DNA of 64,000 nucleotides from Stanieria cyanosphaera PCC 7437 (GTDB taxonomy: Bacteria; Cyanobacteriota; Cyanobacteriia; Cyanobacteriales; Xenococcaceae). The DNA lies in NCBI RefSeq assembly GCF_000317575.1, contig NC_019748.1, positions 62,001 to 126,000 of the forward strand, in the 5' to 3' direction. A program made the translations under genes and the position numbers. Positions within the stretch are counted from its first letter, which is position 1, and the number at the start of each line of letters is the position of its first letter. Below, piece after piece: positions 4,047 through 23,867 of this stretch. The notes beneath the pieces were generated by a model. The model ran no database searches and had not been told where the DNA came from. It saw only the letters and a program-made list of their open reading frames with translations.

Positions 4047-5870
4047 ATGGTTAAACAGCCGATGCCCACCGCAGAAGAATCAAATTTCATTAGATTACCG
4101 CGCACAAGTGAATCAGAAAATCTCAAGAAAATCCGCCACACAACCTCCCACATCATGGCAATGGCGGTGCAGAAGCTGTTTCCGAAAACACAAGTAACCA
4201 TTGGTCCTTGGACAGAAAATGGCTTTTATTACGACTTTGATAGTCCTGAACCTTTTACCGATAAAGATTTAAAAGCAATTAAGAAAGAGATGATCAAGAT
4301 CATCAATCAAAAATTGCCTGTCATTCGGGAAGAAGTCAGTCGAGAAGAAGCTAAACAGCGTATTGAAAAGTTAAACGAACCTTATAAACTAGAAATACTT
4401 GAGGGAATTCAAGAACCGATTACACTTTACCATTTGGGTGAGAGATGGTGGGATTTGTGTGCTGGCCCTCATGTGGAAAGTACCGCAGATATTAATCCCA
4501 AAGCCATTGACTTAGAAAGTGTAGCTGGTGCTTATTGGCGTGGAGATGAAACTAAAGCCCAACTACAACGGATCTATGGTACAGCTTGGGAAACTCCCGA
4601 ACAGTTAGCCGAATATAAACGTCGTAAAGAAGAAGCCTTAAGAAGAGATCATCGTAAGTTAGGTAAGGAATTAGGACTATTTATTTTTGCCGATCCTGTT
4701 GGTCCTGGTTTACCTTTATGGACTCCCAAAGGAACAATCTTGCGATCGCAGTTGGAAGATTTTCTCAAACAAGAACAGATCAAACGTGGTTATCTTCCTG
4801 TTGTAACACCGCATATTGCCAGAATCGATTTATTTAAAACTTCAGGACACTGGCAAAAATACAAAGAAGATATGTTCCCGATGATGGCAGAAGATGAGGA
4901 AGCAGCCAAGCTAGAACAGGGATTTGTCCTCAAACCAATGAACTGTCCTTTTCACATCCAAATTTATAAAAGTCAGTTGCGTTCTTATCGGGAATTACCC
5001 ATCAGATTAGCTGAGTTTGGAACTGTTTATCGTTATGAACAATCAGGAGAATTAGGCGGTTTAACTAGGGTGAGAGGTTTTACTGTCGATGATTCTCATT
5101 TGTTTGTCACTCCTGAACAATTAGATGATGAATTCCTTAAAGTAGTAGATTTAATTCTGGCTGTCTTCAAGAGTTTACAACTGAAGAACTTTAAAGCACG
5201 TCTTAGTTTCCGTGATCCTGAATCAGATAAATATATCGGTTCGGATGAAGTTTGGTCAAAAGCCGAAGGCGCAATTCGTCGTGCAGTACAAACCTTGGAG
5301 ATGGATTATTTTGAAGCACCAGGAGAAGCTGCTTTTTATGGCCCAAAACTAGACTTTATTTTTGAAGATGTTTTAGAACGGGAATGGCAGTTAGGAACAG
5401 TACAGGTAGATTATAATCTTCCAGAACGCTTTGATTTAGAATACATTGCGGAAGATGGCTCTCGTAAACGCCCAGTCATGATTCACCGCGCACCTTTTGG
5501 TTCTTTAGAAAGGTTGATTGGTATTTTGATTGAAGAATATGCAGGAGACTTTCCTTTGTGGTTAGCACCTACTCAAATTCGTTTACTACCTGTAAACGAT
5601 AGTCACATGGATTTCGTACAGGAAATAACAACTAAGATGCTAGCAGCAGGAATTAGGGCAGAAGCGGATACCAGTAGGGAACGCCTCGGTAAAATGATCC
5701 GTAACGCCGAAACTCAAAAAATTCCTGTAATGGCAGTAGTTGGAGACAAAGAACTTGAAGGAAACGCTTTAAATATACGTACTCGTGTTTCGGGAGAATT
5801 AGGAGCAATTCCTGTGGCAGAAGTAATCAATAAGTTAACTGATGCTATCTCTTCTCACAGTAATTTGTAG
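4047..5870 (+). CDS. thrS: threonine--tRNA ligase
   Basis: Class II synthetase that charges tRNA(Thr), 607 residues. The order is the N2 editing domain (TTSHIMAMAVQ near residue 33 and CAGPHVES near 140), the catalytic core with zinc ligands in MNCPFHIQIYK and motif 2 in YRYEQSGELGGLTRVRGF, motif 3 in HRAPFGSLERL, and the C-terminal anticodon-binding domain. The N-terminal TGS domain of the long bacterial form is absent, which is usual for cyanobacterial ThrS of about 600 residues. The ATG at 4047 fits homologue length. The gene stands alone and is followed by a good terminator. Confidence 0.96.
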   Translation: MVKQPMPTAEESNFIRLPRTSESENLKKIRHTTSHIMAMAVQKLFPKTQVTIGPWTENGFYYDFDSPEPFTDKDLKAIKKEMIKIINQKLPVIREEVSREEAKQRIEKLNEPYKLEILEGIQEPITLYHLGERWWDLCAGPHVESTADINPKAIDLESVAGAYWRGDETKAQLQRIYGTAWETPEQLAEYKRRKEEALRRDHRKLGKELGLFIFADPVGPGLPLWTPKGTILRSQLEDFLKQEQIKRGYLPVVTPHIARIDLFKTSGHWQKYKEDMFPMMAEDEEAAKLEQGFVLKPMNCPFHIQIYKSQLRSYRELPIRLAEFGTVYRYEQSGELGGLTRVRGFTVDDSHLFVTPEQLDDEFLKVVDLILAVFKSLQLKNFKARLSFRDPESDKYIGSDEVWSKAEGAIRRAVQTLEMDYFEAPGEAAFYGPKLDFIFEDVLEREWQLGTVQVDYNLPERFDLEYIAEDGSRKRPVMIHRAPFGSLERLIGILIEEYAGDFPLWLAPTQIRLLPVNDSHMDFVQEITTKMLAAGIRAEADTSRERLGKMIRNAETQKIPVMAVVGDKELEGNALNIRTRVSGELGAIPVAEVINKLTDAISSHSNL

Positions 5871-15778: not shown

Positions 15779-18655
15779 GTGACAGAAGTAAAGAGCTACA
15801 AAGATACCGTAAATCTGCCCCAGACAGAATTCAACATGAGGGCAAACGCCAAGACGCGCGAACCAGAATTACAACAATTTTGGGCAGAAAACCAAATTTA
15901 CGAACAACTGTCACAACATAATCCAAATGATCTATTTATTCTTCACGATGGCCCTCCCTATGCTAATGGTTCGCTACACATGGGTCATGCTTTAAATAAA
16001 ATTCTCAAAGATATTATCAATAAATACAAATTATTGAGAGGGCATAAAGTTAAATATGTTCCTGGTTGGGACTGTCATGGACTCCCGATTGAATTAAAAG
16101 TGCTACAAAGCATGAAATCGAAAGAAAGGGAGGGTCTAACCCCGATCAAATTACGCCACAAAGCCCGCGATTTTGCCCTGAAAACCCAACAAGAACAGTG
16201 CGAAGGTTTCAAAAGATATGGAATCTGGGGAGACTGGGAACATCCCTATTTAACCATGACTCCTGACTATGAAGCAGCCCAGATTGGTGTGTTTGGGCAA
16301 ATGGCATTAAAAGGTTATATTTATCGCGGATTAAAACCAGTTCATTGGAGTCCTAGTTCTCATACGGCTTTGGCTGAAGCGGAATTAGAATATCCTGAAG
16401 GGCATACTTCCCGTAGTGTTTATGCTGCCTTTCCTGTAATCTCTTTGGGAGAAGACGCAAAGGAATTAGAACAGTATTTACCTAATTTAAGTGTAGCGAT
16501 TTGGACTACTACACCTTGGACTATTCCAGGAAATTTAGCAGTTGCAGTTAATGGGGATTTAGAATACGCAGTTGTTGATGTAGGGACAATTCATGAATTG
16601 TCTCTACAGTATTTAATTGTTGCTAAAGATTTAGTCGAAAAATTATCTGCAACTCTCGGTACTAACCTGACAGTTAAAACAACCTTACTAGGGAAAGCTT
16701 TAGAAGGAATCACTTATCGTCATCCTTTATTCAATAGAGAAAGTAAAGTTGTTATCGGAGGCGATTATATCACTACCGAATCTGGTACAGGTTTAGTTCA
16801 TACTGCCCCCGGACATGGACAAGAAGACTATATTGTCGGACAGAAGTATGGTTTACCGATTCTTTCTCCTGTAGATGATAAAGGTTATTTTACTGAAGAA
16901 GCAGGTAAATTTGCAGGGTTAAATGTTCTCAATGGTGGTAACGAAGCGATTATTGAAGCTTTAAAAGATGCTGGTTCGCTACTAAAAGAAGAACCTTATC
17001 AACATAAATATCCTTACGACTGGCGTACCAAAAAACCAACTATTTTTCGGGCGACAGAACAATGGTTTGCCTCGGTAGAAGGATTTAGAGAAGAAGCTTT
17101 AAAAGCAATTTCCTCTGTGCAATGGATTCCTGCCCAAGGAGAAAATCGCATCACTCCGATGGTAGCAGAACGTTCGGATTGGTGTATTTCTCGTCAGCGT
17201 AGTTGGGGTGTTCCTATTCCTGTATTTTATGATGAGGAAACGAATGAACCCCTTTTAACCGAAGAAACAATTAATTATGTCCAAAGGATCATCGCAGCAA
17301 AGGGTTCGGATGCTTGGTGGGAACTACCTGTAGAAGAATTGTTACCAGAACAATATCGTTCTAACGGGCGCAAGTATCGTAAAGGTACGGATACAATGGA
17401 TGTCTGGTTTGATTCTGGTTCGTCTTGGGCAGCGGTAGCTAAAGCCAGAAATTTAAAATATCCTGTCGATATGTATCTGGAAGGATCGGATCAGCATCGC
17501 GGATGGTTTCAATCTAGTTTACTTACCAGTGTCGCGACTAATGGCATTGCACCCTATCAAACCGTTTTAACTCACGGTTTCGTCTTGGATGAAAAGGGAC
17601 GTAAGATGAGTAAATCTTTGGGTAATGTCGTCGATCCCAAAATCATCATCGAGGGTGGTAACAATCAAAAACAAGAACCGCCTTACGGTGCAGATGTTTT
17701 AAGATTATGGGTATCTTCGGTTGACTATTCTTCTGACGTTCCCATCGGTCAAAATATTCTCAAACAGTTAGGAGATATCTATCGTAAGATTCGCAATACT
17801 GCCCGTTTCTTACTCGGTAACTTACACGATTTTAATCCTGAAACCGATGCAGTTGCCTATGCAGACTTACCCGAACTAGATAAGTATATGCTGCATCGTA
17901 TGACAGAAGTGTTTGCCGATGTCACCGAAGCCTTTGAAAGTTTTCAATTCTTCCGCTTCTTCCAAACCGTACAAAATTTCTGTGTGGTAGATTTATCCAA
18001 CTTCTATTTAGATATTGCCAAAGACAGACTATATATTTCTGATCCAAATTCCTTCCGTCGTCGTAGCTGTCAGACAGTATTAGCCATTGCAGTAGAAAGT
18101 CTCGCAAAAGCGATCGCGCCTGTATTATCTCACATGGCAGAGGATATTTGGCAATCTATCCCCTATGAAACTAGTTATAGATCGGTTTTCCAAGCTGGTT
18201 GGGTGGAGATGAAAGACGAATGGAAGAAACCAGAATTAAATCAATTTTGGACAAAAATTCGTCAGTTAAGAGACGAAGTTAATAAAGTAATGGAACAAGC
18301 TAGAACAGCAAAAGCGATCGGTTCTTCTCTCGATGCTAAAGTTTTATTATATGTTGCCGATTCTGATCTAAAACAACATCTAGAAGCTTTTAATCCTACT
18401 GATAGTTTTAGTGGCAATGGGATTGATCAGTTGCGTTACTTCTTCCTTGCTTCTCAAGTAGCATTGGTAGACTCTTCTGAAACAATCGATAAAGCTGAAT
18501 ATAACAGTAAAAGCGATCGTTTAGGAATTGCTATTGTCAAAGCTGATGGCGAAAAATGCGATCGCTGTTGGAATTATTCTACTACCGTAGGAAGTTTTAA
18601 AGACGATCCGACGATATGCGATCGCTGTAATGCTGCTTTGAAAGGAGAGTTTTAA
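15779..18655 (+). CDS. ileS: isoleucine--tRNA ligase
   Basis: Class I synthetase of 958 residues that charges tRNA(Ile). It shows the HIGH motif as HMGH in PPYANGSLHMGHALNK, the CP1 editing domain with TTTPWTIPGN near 240 and the GTGLVHTAPGHG stretch, the KMSKS loop (KGRKMSKSLGN near residue 610) and a C-terminal zinc finger with two Cys pairs (CDRCWNY, then CDRCNA). The start is GTG at 15779; the following residues match the expected N-terminus. Length is normal and the frame intact. Confidence 0.96.
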   Translation: MTEVKSYKDTVNLPQTEFNMRANAKTREPELQQFWAENQIYEQLSQHNPNDLFILHDGPPYANGSLHMGHALNKILKDIINKYKLLRGHKVKYVPGWDCHGLPIELKVLQSMKSKEREGLTPIKLRHKARDFALKTQQEQCEGFKRYGIWGDWEHPYLTMTPDYEAAQIGVFGQMALKGYIYRGLKPVHWSPSSHTALAEAELEYPEGHTSRSVYAAFPVISLGEDAKELEQYLPNLSVAIWTTTPWTIPGNLAVAVNGDLEYAVVDVGTIHELSLQYLIVAKDLVEKLSATLGTNLTVKTTLLGKALEGITYRHPLFNRESKVVIGGDYITTESGTGLVHTAPGHGQEDYIVGQKYGLPILSPVDDKGYFTEEAGKFAGLNVLNGGNEAIIEALKDAGSLLKEEPYQHKYPYDWRTKKPTIFRATEQWFASVEGFREEALKAISSVQWIPAQGENRITPMVAERSDWCISRQRSWGVPIPVFYDEETNEPLLTEETINYVQRIIAAKGSDAWWELPVEELLPEQYRSNGRKYRKGTDTMDVWFDSGSSWAAVAKARNLKYPVDMYLEGSDQHRGWFQSSLLTSVATNGIAPYQTVLTHGFVLDEKGRKMSKSLGNVVDPKIIIEGGNNQKQEPPYGADVLRLWVSSVDYSSDVPIGQNILKQLGDIYRKIRNTARFLLGNLHDFNPETDAVAYADLPELDKYMLHRMTEVFADVTEAFESFQFFRFFQTVQNFCVVDLSNFYLDIAKDRLYISDPNSFRRRSCQTVLAIAVESLAKAIAPVLSHMAEDIWQSIPYETSYRSVFQAGWVEMKDEWKKPELNQFWTKIRQLRDEVNKVMEQARTAKAIGSSLDAKVLLYVADSDLKQHLEAFNPTDSFSGNGIDQLRYFFLASQVALVDSSETIDKAEYNSKSDRLGIAIVKADGEKCDRCWNYSTTVGSFKDDPTICDRCNAALKGEF

Positions 18656-18742
18656 TCAACTGGAGGGGTAATGTAAGAATTATCCCTTGTCCTACAGACT
18701 TTTGTTATATTAGGAAGCTGTGGAATATTAGACTGACATCGA

Positions 18743-20917
18743 GTGGAGAAGCAAACACCAACATTTATCGATCTTTTTGCAGGAATTGGAGGATTTCGAC
18801 TAGCTTTTGAACAGGCTGGATATAAGTGTGTCTATTCTTGTGAAATAGATAGTGCTTGTCAAGAGGTTTATTTTAATAACTTTGGTGAAAAACCCAAAGA
18901 TGACATTACTAAGATAGACATTGAAAAAATACCAGATTTTGATGTTTTAACCGCAGGTTTTCCTTGTCAACCATTTAGTATCTGTGGCAAAAGACAAGGT
19001 TTTGAAGATACACGAGGTACGCTATTTTTCCATATCTGCAAAATTATAGAAGCTAAACAACCTAGTGTAGTGCTTTTAGAAAATGTAAAGCATTTAGTTC
19101 ATCATGACCGAGGAAGAACTTTAGATATAATTCTTTATTCTTTAGAAGATTTAGGATATTTAGTCGATTATAAAATACTTAATTCTAAAGATTTTGGTCT
19201 TCCACAAAATAGAGAAAGAATTATAATTTTTGCAACTAAAAATAAAAAATTTGATTTTAATCTTATCGAGACAAATAACTGCATAAAAAAATTAGAAGAG
19301 TATCTTTGTAAACAGGGATATTTTGAATATTTAAAAAAGCAAGAATACACCCTAATTGAAAATCCTAAAAAACAATCTTCAGGATTAATTTTTGTTGGAT
19401 ATAGAACTAATAAAACAACTTGGAAAAAAGGAGTTAGACCTAATACACAACATCTTTCTAGAGTACATCATCAACCAAATCGTATTTATTCTGTGGAAGG
19501 AGTTCATCCTACTATCCCGTCTCAAGAAACATCAGGAAGATTTTTTATTTATATACCAAAAGAAAATAAAGTTCGCAAATTAACAATTAAAGAATGCTAT
19601 CGAATTATGGGGTTTCCCAATAGTTTTAAAATTCATGATTCAGTTGCAGAATGTTACAAGCAAATTGGCAATTCTGTATGTATTCCCATGATTTATCAAT
19701 TAGCCGTTCAAATAAACAAGCAAAATTTAATGAGATCGAAAGAAAAAATATATAACCATAATATTAATTTTTATCAGCGTAAACCAGTACAGCTTGAGAT
19801 TTTAGAAGTCGCTGTTATGAATCATAAACAAAAATTATTAGAAATATATTATCAATCATCAGATTTGGAAAATAATAATCAATTACCAGATCCGATAATT
19901 GAATATATTAATGTTATTGCCCAAAATTGTTCTAAGCAGAAAGGCGTTTATACAGTATTAATAACTCTATTAATACATAAAATTCTCGAACCGACTCAAG
20001 ATATTAGATATCATCAAACAAGTATGGCTGGAGGATTTTCTGGTAGAACAATAGACACTCAATATATTACACCCACGCTTAAAGAATTAGGACTACCAGC
20101 TATGGCAGAAAGTGGTTGGTTAACTCGTTCTCTAGAACAACCTTATCCTTATACTCTAAAATACGAAGGCAAAATTAATAATAAATCTGTCAAAAATGCT
20201 TTCTTAAGTATTATTGATTTTGTAGAGGAACATCCTGATAAAACAGAACTAATTACTAAATTACTAATTTATCAAATCAAACAAGCTACACAATCTAATC
20301 GGATTGCCATTGTTAAGTTAGCAAATCCTGAAAAATTAAATATAATAACAGTTATTAATTGTCTAGATACTCATTTTAGCTATAATTATAAAACTTTTGG
20401 AGCATCTAAATTACCTGTAATAGCTTTTTATGCAATTTATCAAAGATTAATTCAAGAAGTTGAAAGATATAAAGAATGTATTTTAAAAGATTTAGGCAGC
20501 CATACTGCATCAGATCGTACTTCTAAAACAGCAGGAGATATAAAAATTTTTGATAAAAGTAAAAAACTTATTGAAGCTATAGAAATTAAGTATGGTAAAC
20601 CAATTAGTTTACAACTAGTTCTAAATGCTAAAGATAAAATATTAAAATATAGTCCCAGAAGATACTATATATTTTCTTCTGTTGATATTTACAAAGAAGA
20701 TGAAATTAAAATCAAAAATGAAATTGAATTAATTGCTCGGAATCATGGTTGTCAAGTTATTGTTAATGGAATTATTCCAACACTTAAATATTATTTGAGA
20801 TTAATTACATCAGTAGAAAATTTTATTGAAAATTATTCTAGATTAGTAGAACAAGATCGAGAATTACAAGCTATCCATAAAATACAGTGGAATAATATAT
20901 TAAAAACTCTTGAATAA
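18743..20917 (+). CDS. DNA C5-cytosine methyltransferase fused to a restriction-endonuclease-like domain
   Basis: A single chain of 724 residues. Residues 1-330 are a complete C5-methyltransferase: motif I DLFAGIGGF, motif IV GFPCQPFS with catalytic Cys75, motif VI LLENVKHL with Glu113, motif VIII QNRERIIIFA and motif X QIGNSVCIPM. Residues about 360-724 are a different domain with a PD-(D/E)xK-like core: Asp599 in AGDIKIF, then Glu614 and Lys616 in AIEIKYGK. The overall pattern recalls SacI-type endonucleases (low confidence). It would thus both methylate and cut one site. The start is GTG. Internal ATGs at 19730 and 19817 could give a separate nuclease. The gene is very AT-rich and I find no GCGATCGC in it, suggesting recent transfer. 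Confidence 0.82.
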   Translation: MEKQTPTFIDLFAGIGGFRLAFEQAGYKCVYSCEIDSACQEVYFNNFGEKPKDDITKIDIEKIPDFDVLTAGFPCQPFSICGKRQGFEDTRGTLFFHICKIIEAKQPSVVLLENVKHLVHHDRGRTLDIILYSLEDLGYLVDYKILNSKDFGLPQNRERIIIFATKNKKFDFNLIETNNCIKKLEEYLCKQGYFEYLKKQEYTLIENPKKQSSGLIFVGYRTNKTTWKKGVRPNTQHLSRVHHQPNRIYSVEGVHPTIPSQETSGRFFIYIPKENKVRKLTIKECYRIMGFPNSFKIHDSVAECYKQIGNSVCIPMIYQLAVQINKQNLMRSKEKIYNHNINFYQRKPVQLEILEVAVMNHKQKLLEIYYQSSDLENNNQLPDPIIEYINVIAQNCSKQKGVYTVLITLLIHKILEPTQDIRYHQTSMAGGFSGRTIDTQYITPTLKELGLPAMAESGWLTRSLEQPYPYTLKYEGKINNKSVKNAFLSIIDFVEEHPDKTELITKLLIYQIKQATQSNRIAIVKLANPEKLNIITVINCLDTHFSYNYKTFGASKLPVIAFYAIYQRLIQEVERYKECILKDLGSHTASDRTSKTAGDIKIFDKSKKLIEAIEIKYGKPISLQLVLNAKDKILKYSPRRYYIFSSVDIYKEDEIKIKNEIELIARNHGCQVIVNGIIPTLKYYLRLITSVENFIENYSRLVEQDRELQAIHKIQWNNILKTLE

Positions 20918-20953
20918 TTTTAAGCTATTTAAAACAATTGGGGTATAAATAAT

Positions 20954-21160
20954 ATGAATAATAAAAAAATACCTGATATCGAAACAAGAAAAAAATCACT
21001 ATCTCGTCTTAGAGAAGTTTGTTTAATGTTAGATGTTTTAAACATGACTTTGGATGAAGCGATAGCAAGTGCTGAAGCCGATCTTCGTAATAACAATATT
21101 AATCGCCGTCGTCGCCAAGAAGCAGAACGTTTATTTGCTGATTATAAAAAAAACAATTAA
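20954..21160 (+). CDS. small charged protein downstream of the methyltransferase-nuclease
   Basis: A 68-residue, highly charged, helical protein (MNNKKIPDIETRKKSLSRL at the N-terminus; an Arg run NRRRRQEAERLF near the C-terminus). It starts 36 bases after the restriction-modification gene on the same strand and shares its AT-rich composition. No known domain is recognised. It lacks an evident helix-turn-helix, so it is not an obvious C-protein. It could be a small regulatory or structural partner of the upstream enzyme, or an unrelated passenger. Confidence 0.55.
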   Translation: MNNKKIPDIETRKKSLSRLREVCLMLDVLNMTLDEAIASAEADLRNNNINRRRRQEAERLFADYKKNN

Positions 21161-23293: not shown

Positions 23294-23389
23294 GTATTTG
23301 CACAGACGTTGCCAAATTAAGATATGGAGAGTAATTGAGCGTGCTGGACAAGAAGAAGGTGTAATTGCTGTTTATAGATCGAGTTTATG
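23294..23389 (+). pseudogene. possible C-terminal remnant of a lost gene
   Basis: A short open stretch ending IWRVIERAGQEEGVIAVYRS and closing with a TGA that overlaps the ATG of the methyltransferase remnant (ATGA arrangement). It has no start of its own and reads like the last 25-30 residues of a protein once cotranscribed with that methyltransferase. I do not recognise the family. Confidence 0.35.
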
Positions 23390-23867
23390 ATTCAATCTTT
23401 CAAAAACAAAATAGAATACGGAGATTTTCAAACTCCAGTAGATTTGGCTGAAAAAATTTGCTCTAAGAGAGTCGAACTTGGTATTAATCCCGACGTAATT
23501 ATAGAGCCAACCTGTGGTGTAGGCAATTTCATTACAGTTTCTGCAAAGTATTTCAAATCTGCGAGAAAAATTATAGGCTTTGAAATCAATCAAAATTACA
23601 TTAATAAAATTATTTAGCTCCTAAAACTTGGAATTATTTAGAGTCTCATGCAAAATATTTAGATGCTAGAAAAAGCAAAATATATCAAAATAATCCTCGA
23701 TTTTCTATTTTTGGAGTTGGCAATTATACCTTTTCACCTTGGAAAATAGCAATTTGCGGACTATATAAAAAACTCAACTTTCGGCTTATTGGGACAATAA
23801 TAAGATAGATATCCAACATAATTATTATTATTTTTCAATAGAAAATCAGTCGCTACTATCCAAATAA
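23387..23867 (+). pseudogene. remnant of a DNA N6-adenine methyltransferase
   Basis: The first 76 residues (23387-23617) carry a SAM-binding motif, VIIEPTCGVGNFI, typical of amino-methyltransferases, then hit a stop. Without the central NPPY-type catalytic region the homology resumes in the same strand (about 23640-23800) with a C-terminal block, FSIFGVGNYTFSPWKIAICG then LYKKLNFRLIG, followed by one more frame change and a stop at 23867, overlapping the convergent monooxygenase end. So the gene has lost its middle and is frameshifted. It is likely a dead restriction-modification gene. Confidence 0.75.

Follow-up and report, generated by a model that had tools for sequence, protein, structure and literature searches.

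Directly behind ileS, the window (the whole stretch of 64,000 nucleotides analysed here, from a genome of 5.54 Mb in 6 contigs) carries one long open reading frame whose product begins as a DNA methyltransferase and ends in a nuclease-like domain. How is such a protein to be read: as a natural restriction–modification (RM) enzyme in a single chain, as a methyltransferase with a dead nuclease attached, or as one part of a system that includes the small ORF behind it? We favor the first reading and assign it a probability of about 0.85: a natural single-chain C5 type II RM enzyme, in which an HhaI-like methyltransferase (M) precedes an EcoT38I/SacI-like restriction endonuclease (R), and which originated from an M>R operon by stop loss. 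That the gene encodes a C5 single-chain RM enzyme can be stated with high confidence; we infer that both activities are present, that they share a site, that the nuclease dimerises and that evolution led from the split to the fused state. The locus comprises the following features:

15779–18658, + strand: ileS, the resident gene directly upstream of the RM gene (ORF and neighbourhood comparison)
18743–20917, + strand: RM gene for a single chain of 724 aa, in which a C5 methyltransferase is followed by a PD-(D/E)xK restriction endonuclease (ORF with GTG start)
18743–19720, + strand: C5-methyltransferase domain, aa 1–326, with the catalytic Cys75 at 18965–18967 and Glu113 (PF00145; M.HhaI)
19721–19816, + strand: variable linker, aa 327–358 (low conservation; pLDDT 46–61 at its start)
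19817–19819, + strand: ATG of Met359, the old start of the R gene (retained in each of the 16 fused proteins from cyanobacteria that were compared)
19817–20917, + strand: restriction endonuclease domain, very probably EcoT38I/SacI-like (AlphaFold2 model and EcoT38I match; free-standing beside methyltransferases elsewhere)
20537–20590, + strand: catalytic motif D599 ... E614-x-K616 (sequence and alignments; strand-strand-helix-strand core in the model)
20954–21160, + strand: small ORF (68 aa) from a cyanobacterial family with several copies per genome, 36 nt past the RM gene, a resident neighbour outside the RM system

For the N-terminal half, the Pfam search matched PF00145 at residues 7–325 (E 1.9e-94) over positions 2–323 of the 324 in the profile, and the nearest solved structure in a sequence search of the PDB is M.HhaI (E 3e-72), which marks the domain as HhaI-like. 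Motifs I–X of a C5-methyltransferase are in place, with Cys75 lying within AGFPCQP and Glu113 within LLENV. Together with the 724-aa ORF, the PF00145 match agrees with the initial annotation, which had described a full C5-methyltransferase continuing in frame into a PD-(D/E)xK-like part of about 365 residues.

The identity of that C-terminal part had to be approached through its relatives and its predicted structure. On their own, residues 331–724 gave no match above noise in Pfam, NCBIfam, PADLOC or the PDB sequences, and PDB sequence searches with the R domain and with profiles A2 and A4 returned no restriction enzyme, EcoT38I included; rows for Tako8 and imidazoleglycerol dehydratase in these searches were taken as chance. 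The presumed catalytic residues D599, E614 and K616 belong to the motif GDI-x-EIK. All 20 rows of an alignment of relatives (A2) share D599 and K616, and across the 71 rows of a second alignment (A4) D599 is invariant while E614 and K616 are conserved to at least 90%. An AlphaFold2 model of the R domain, built from 71 aligned rows, has a mean pLDDT of 90.2 and displays a strand-strand-helix-strand PD-(D/E)xK core, so that the Asp599, Glu614, Lys616 core proposed at the outset is found both as conserved residues and as a predicted structure, the combination expected of a PD-(D/E)xK type II endonuclease. Compared with solved structures, the model matches EcoT38I (PDB 7edb, 7e8r) over its whole length and with the same overall fold (Z 25.6, rmsd 3.7, 334 of 350 residues aligned, Foldseek E 4e-11); the best enzyme other than EcoT38I reaches Z 9.4. 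The two domains share 13% identity and no sequence-level match, and the window R domain differs from EcoT38I in being fused to its own methylase.

The initial annotation had further hinted at a SacI-like enzyme and proposed an HMM search of the C-terminal part. In Pfam, the window R domain itself has no match to the SacI family, PF09566; among its relatives, however, 3 of 20 match PF09566 (best 1.1e-5) and one, L036, exceeds the gathering cut-off. A profile of the R family aligned to two SacI-family proteins with an hhalign probability of 87% (E 4e-6), this profile including the bridging rows, whereas the narrower A1 profile reached 25%. The kinship with the SacI family is thus a distant one, traced through relatives and not by a direct match. 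EcoT38I recognizes GRGCYC and SacI recognizes GAGCTC; as these sites are related, the SacI hint was a good one, and it agrees with the EcoT38I fold. Taking alignments and model together, the C-terminal domain is very probably a restriction endonuclease of the PD-(D/E)xK type, akin to EcoT38I and SacI.

Could the junction of the two halves be an assembly artefact, a possibility that the initial annotation had named? A single intact ORF spans both halves in 19 of 80 loci (the best 80 of 89 relatives from an alignment scan, which come from many phyla, archaea among them), and fused frames also occur on chromosome-sized contigs (G284, G312, G095); on these grounds the fusion is real. In four more of these 80 loci the fused ORF is broken or cut (L061, L111, L131, L133), and a Staphylococcus epidermidis plasmid copy (L059) is fused as well. 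The survey of fused versus split homologues that had been suggested for this family uncovered fused, split and one-stop-apart arrangements. A quick tree, whose root is arbitrary and which by itself does not separate gain from loss, was built from 71 R domains after exclusion of near copies and broken rows; 21 of these domains are fused, 27 are split in the order M>R, 12 are split in the order R>M and 11 are paired with amino methylases. Its fused members form two groups, one of cyanobacteria (16 fused, together with the split Planktothrix and Baaleninema) and one of Bacillota (5). A single fused clade is rejected (AU p 0.00027, for a group named before the test and after seeing the quick tree). 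The junctions differ as well: cyanobacterial proteins have a variable linker, about 30 residues long, with 1 of 32 positions identical in the 16 fused proteins, and those of Bacillota have almost none. In four of 26 split M>R loci examined (L093, L097, L102, L117), R continues the frame of M, with one TAA and 3 nt intervening before the ATG of R; the remaining loci show an overlap of 4 to 125 nt or have the two genes in different frames. We infer that the same-frame, one-stop relatives show the starting point of the fusion, and the fused state appears to have arisen separately in cyanobacteria and in Bacillota, hence at least twice, by loss of the stop.

A methyltransferase accompanies R in 79 of the 80 best relatives of the 89, either beside it or fused to it; in the exception, L112, the contig is short and breaks off within the R frame. 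A C5-methyltransferase match falls within the locus in 68 of these 80, and in a further 11 an upstream ORF has an amino-methyltransferase-like motif, confirmed for L029 by Pfam (E 4e-53); in the wider set of relatives, the partner of L036 is a D12 adenine methylase by Pfam. As cognate partners should, M and R show correlated distances across 51 C5-linked loci (r 0.73, against at most 0.18 in permutations), and all of these loci conserve the target-recognition stretch LSRVHxQPNRIY. Within cyanobacteria, a protein search located the R domain in 35 of 386 genomes, the window genome included; the closest named R relatives are from pleurocapsalean cyanobacteria and a Richelia MAG. Phage records searched with R and viral contigs searched with A4 contained no R relative; phage methyltransferases stayed below 45% identity among the matches listed and contributed no site. 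Avoidance counts were uninformative and were rejected as evidence on the site: the observed/expected ratios of GRGCYC, GAGCTC and GWGCWC are 0.23, 0.18 and 0.05 in a 464-kb sample of G000, similarly low in G406 without an R gene (0.19, 0.16 and 0.04) and near those of no avoidance in the carrier G143 (0.80, 0.98 and 0.70), with the carriers G312 and G284 low and many unrelated palindromes equally low.

The mechanism that we propose for the single-chain enzyme starts with the HhaI-like domain, which would methylate the C5 position of a cytosine in a short site via its own target-recognition region. The C-terminal PD-(D/E)xK domain would recognize the same site when unmethylated and cut it as a dimer with the aid of metal ions. 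The variable linker would join two halves that each bring their own DNA-reading part; since each part is complete, the linker would have no task beyond tethering. Methylation should be possible for a monomer, while cutting would require two nuclease domains, and a newly made protein would thus protect the DNA before cutting it, an idea of control by dimer assembly that is stated for type IIC enzymes in a passage of PMC12707154. As regards origin, a head-to-tail M>R operon would have been fused through loss of the intergenic stop.

How does such an enzyme compare with known single-chain systems? Both parts reside in one 724-aa polypeptide, which corresponds to type IIC; type IIG enzymes have a gamma-class amino methyltransferase and use one specificity module for both activities, whereas here each half has a separate DNA-reading part, the methyltransferase is a PF00145 C5 enzyme, R relatives are free-standing and the EcoT38I match covers the whole length. 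Like the type IIC enzymes treated in part of PMC4081073, the window protein combines methylation and cleavage in one chain. Most of those are described there as gamma-class, with BtgZI as the M-first exception with an alpha-class methylase; BtgZI resembles the window protein in placing M first and a PD-(D/E)xK variant last, and the gamma- or alpha-class methyltransferases of that account contrast with the C5-methyltransferase of the window. According to passages of PMC3039593, each of the 12 proven type IIC enzymes listed in 2011 carried an m6A methylase; that head-to-tail M and R genes should also fuse in nature was a prediction for which no case had been identified at that time. The same passages describe RM.Eco29kI, a laboratory C5 fusion made by mutating a stop/start overlap, which likewise joins a C5-methyltransferase and its own endonuclease in one chain with separate DNA recognition by each; RM.Eco29kI, however, is engineered, contains a GIY-YIG nuclease and runs from R to M, whereas the window protein is natural, of the PD-(D/E)xK type and runs from M to R. 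Within the limited coverage of the literature searched, we found no description of a natural C5 M–R fusion. The present family supplies natural C5 single-chain cases, the earlier ones having been laboratory-built, and as split, one-stop-apart and fused relatives stand side by side in it, the fusion step becomes open to direct testing.

The alternative that survives best concerns the number of products: in addition to the full-length M–R chain, a free nuclease might be translated from the retained R start. Met at the old R start is kept in all fused proteins examined, and in the cyanobacterial ones Met359-Asn-His (359–361) is identical in 16 of 16, although it is located between the variable linker and variable flanks; the triplet is perhaps kept for the fold, as a helix begins at C-terminal residue 31 in the model. 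In four of the five fused genes of Bacillota, the Shine-Dalgarno-like site at the internal ATG is the strongest or second-strongest in the gene and surpasses that of the gene's own start: L114 with −8.8 kcal/mol (rank 1 of 59 ATGs), L118 with −8.8 kcal/mol (2 of 55), L125 with −10.6 kcal/mol (1 of 63) and L127 with −10.6 kcal/mol (1 of 36). The fifth, L059, falls behind with −5.1 kcal/mol and rank 9 of 51, and since L114 and L118 are near relatives, there are fewer than four independent cases. The internal site is encoded via EGDVI, EGEII, SGGIS and MEVN, in differing codon phases; this use of different amino acids and phases argues for a role in the RNA. That restriction systems can use internal starts is shown by McrBS, mentioned in a passage of PMC12707154. 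The window site, on the other hand, lends no support, with a dG of −0.5 and rank 7 of 24. Judging from these sequences, a free nuclease is a real possibility in Bacillota and, given the kept Met, a possible product in the window. Overall, we consider two products per gene conceivable but short of even odds, and the wider proposal of a C5 single-chain family with at least two stop-loss origins, in which the old R start is still used and translation sets the balance of chains, somewhat unlikely. If true, one gene would yield a self-protecting M–R chain and a free nuclease, and the family offers a test of restriction control by dimer assembly, as outlined in that passage of PMC12707154, against control by an internal start.

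A second alternative holds the C-terminal domain to be a relic in decay and the protein to act now as a solitary methyltransferase. It is suggested by residue 601, which is Lys in the window and Glu in nearly all relatives, an exchange that might lower nuclease activity, and by the broken R copies that are common among relatives (L023, L024, L025, L061, L111, L131, L133). The residue is, however, also other than Glu in the fused L059 (alignment A2), all of D599, E614 and K616 are present, 394 codons have stayed open despite the AT-rich DNA and the window protein is 75–79% identical to other pleurocapsalean copies. We therefore regard a dead nuclease as improbable.

The intact single-chain enzyme being preferred, it remains to place it in its neighbourhood, where the initial annotation had correctly located a small ORF 36 bases downstream, at 20954–21160 (+), and had proposed it as an accessory factor. 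At E ≤ 0.1, members of the family of this 68-aa ORF turn up in 44 of 386 genomes, with up to nine matches per genome; in 19 of these genomes the match is below 1e-5. By eye, 13 of 19 other loci of the family have an ORF of about 113 aa, of one family, directly upstream, and no C5 methylase is among the listed neighbours of these 19; the window genome holds one 113-aa copy, elsewhere. The loci L040–L058 record a multi-copy cyanobacterial pair of adjoining small genes of about 113 and about 67 aa with no Pfam family. In G406, which belongs to the same taxonomic family and has no R gene, ileS is followed by a 77%-identical 68-aa ORF, which indicates that this ORF is an older neighbour, the gap between it and ileS being where the RM gene sits in the window; the apparent tail of a 113-aa partner between the two genes of G406 shows that the spot has been rearranged. 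The idea of a system with a third part, the 68-aa ORF as regulator or complement of the RM enzyme, is invited by the 36-nt spacing on the same strand but can be dismissed as very improbable in view of this multi-copy family without RM genes and usually beside its 113-aa partner, of the gene order in G406, and of L064 and L069, where a fused gene follows ileS and a match to the 68-aa ORF, whose retention with homologues had been in question, is missing. About 2.2 kb past the RM gene and the 68-aa ORF, at 23387–23617 (+), a type II methyltransferase has left a remnant of 76 aa (PADLOC PDLC03310, E 3.4e-33, first 75 of 475 positions).

A recent acquisition of the gene, which had also been proposed, was not adopted. 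The region is AT-rich as noted (GC 24–31% against 35–43% around it), though 13.5–15.7 kb of the window is similar at 25–32%. Likewise, GCGATCGC is absent from the 2.4 kb, as a count confirmed, yet this carries little weight because the window has 64 in 64 kb and a comparable 3.8-kb gap at 14.3–18.1 kb; by estimate, 2.4 kb without a HIP1 site is expected about once in 11 at the window's density. Relatives at 75–79% identity are moreover present in other pleurocapsalean genomes. Within the best 80 of 89 relatives, ileS stands directly upstream of the R locus in the window, L064, L069, L093 and L097; across 30 ileS loci of the order, an RM gene follows in one, the window itself. In L064, the fused RM gene is flanked by an imperfect direct repeat of 84 bp from the 3′ end of ileS (2839–2922 and 5207–5290) with a score of 108 against a shuffle maximum of 30, which suggests insertion by target duplication at L064 only. 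This is reminiscent of the insertion of RM genes with long target duplication that was reportedly described by Nobusato in 2000 (cited in PMC3874152). The repeat is absent from the window (28 against a shuffle maximum of 30), L069, L093 and L097, and G406 has a weaker one after its 68-aa ORF (45 against 32). Several IleS frames themselves are unusual, measuring 1090–1254 aa with an insertion near the C-terminus (e.g., G402, G413, G129) where most others have about 960 aa.

G406 also contains, beside ileS (L195:1156–3132, −), a 658-aa ORF that combines a C5 methylase with a full HpaII nuclease (PF09561, E 1.8e-97). Like the window gene, it joins a C5-methyltransferase and an endonuclease naturally in a single ORF; its nuclease family is unrelated, so that C5 fusion is not confined to one nuclease family. 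PF09561 occurs in 5 of 244 genomes, two with fused-length frames (660 and 654 aa; G070 and G056, L282 and L283), one with a separate gene (366 aa) and two with partial ones, and in the two HpaII fusions with a placeable R start the Met is retained and no strong ribosome site is seen. Parts of PMC8099122 and PMC4389544 deal with HpaII genes in the split state and with a nuclease fragment of no relation. Finally, a 698-aa C5 methylase (L274:252–2345; G000:C1:4925751–4927844) bears a C-terminal part of 355 aa, which matches no Pfam family and for which neither the 243 other cyanobacterial genomes nor plasmids yielded a relative; judging from this architecture, it is perhaps another single-chain enzyme.
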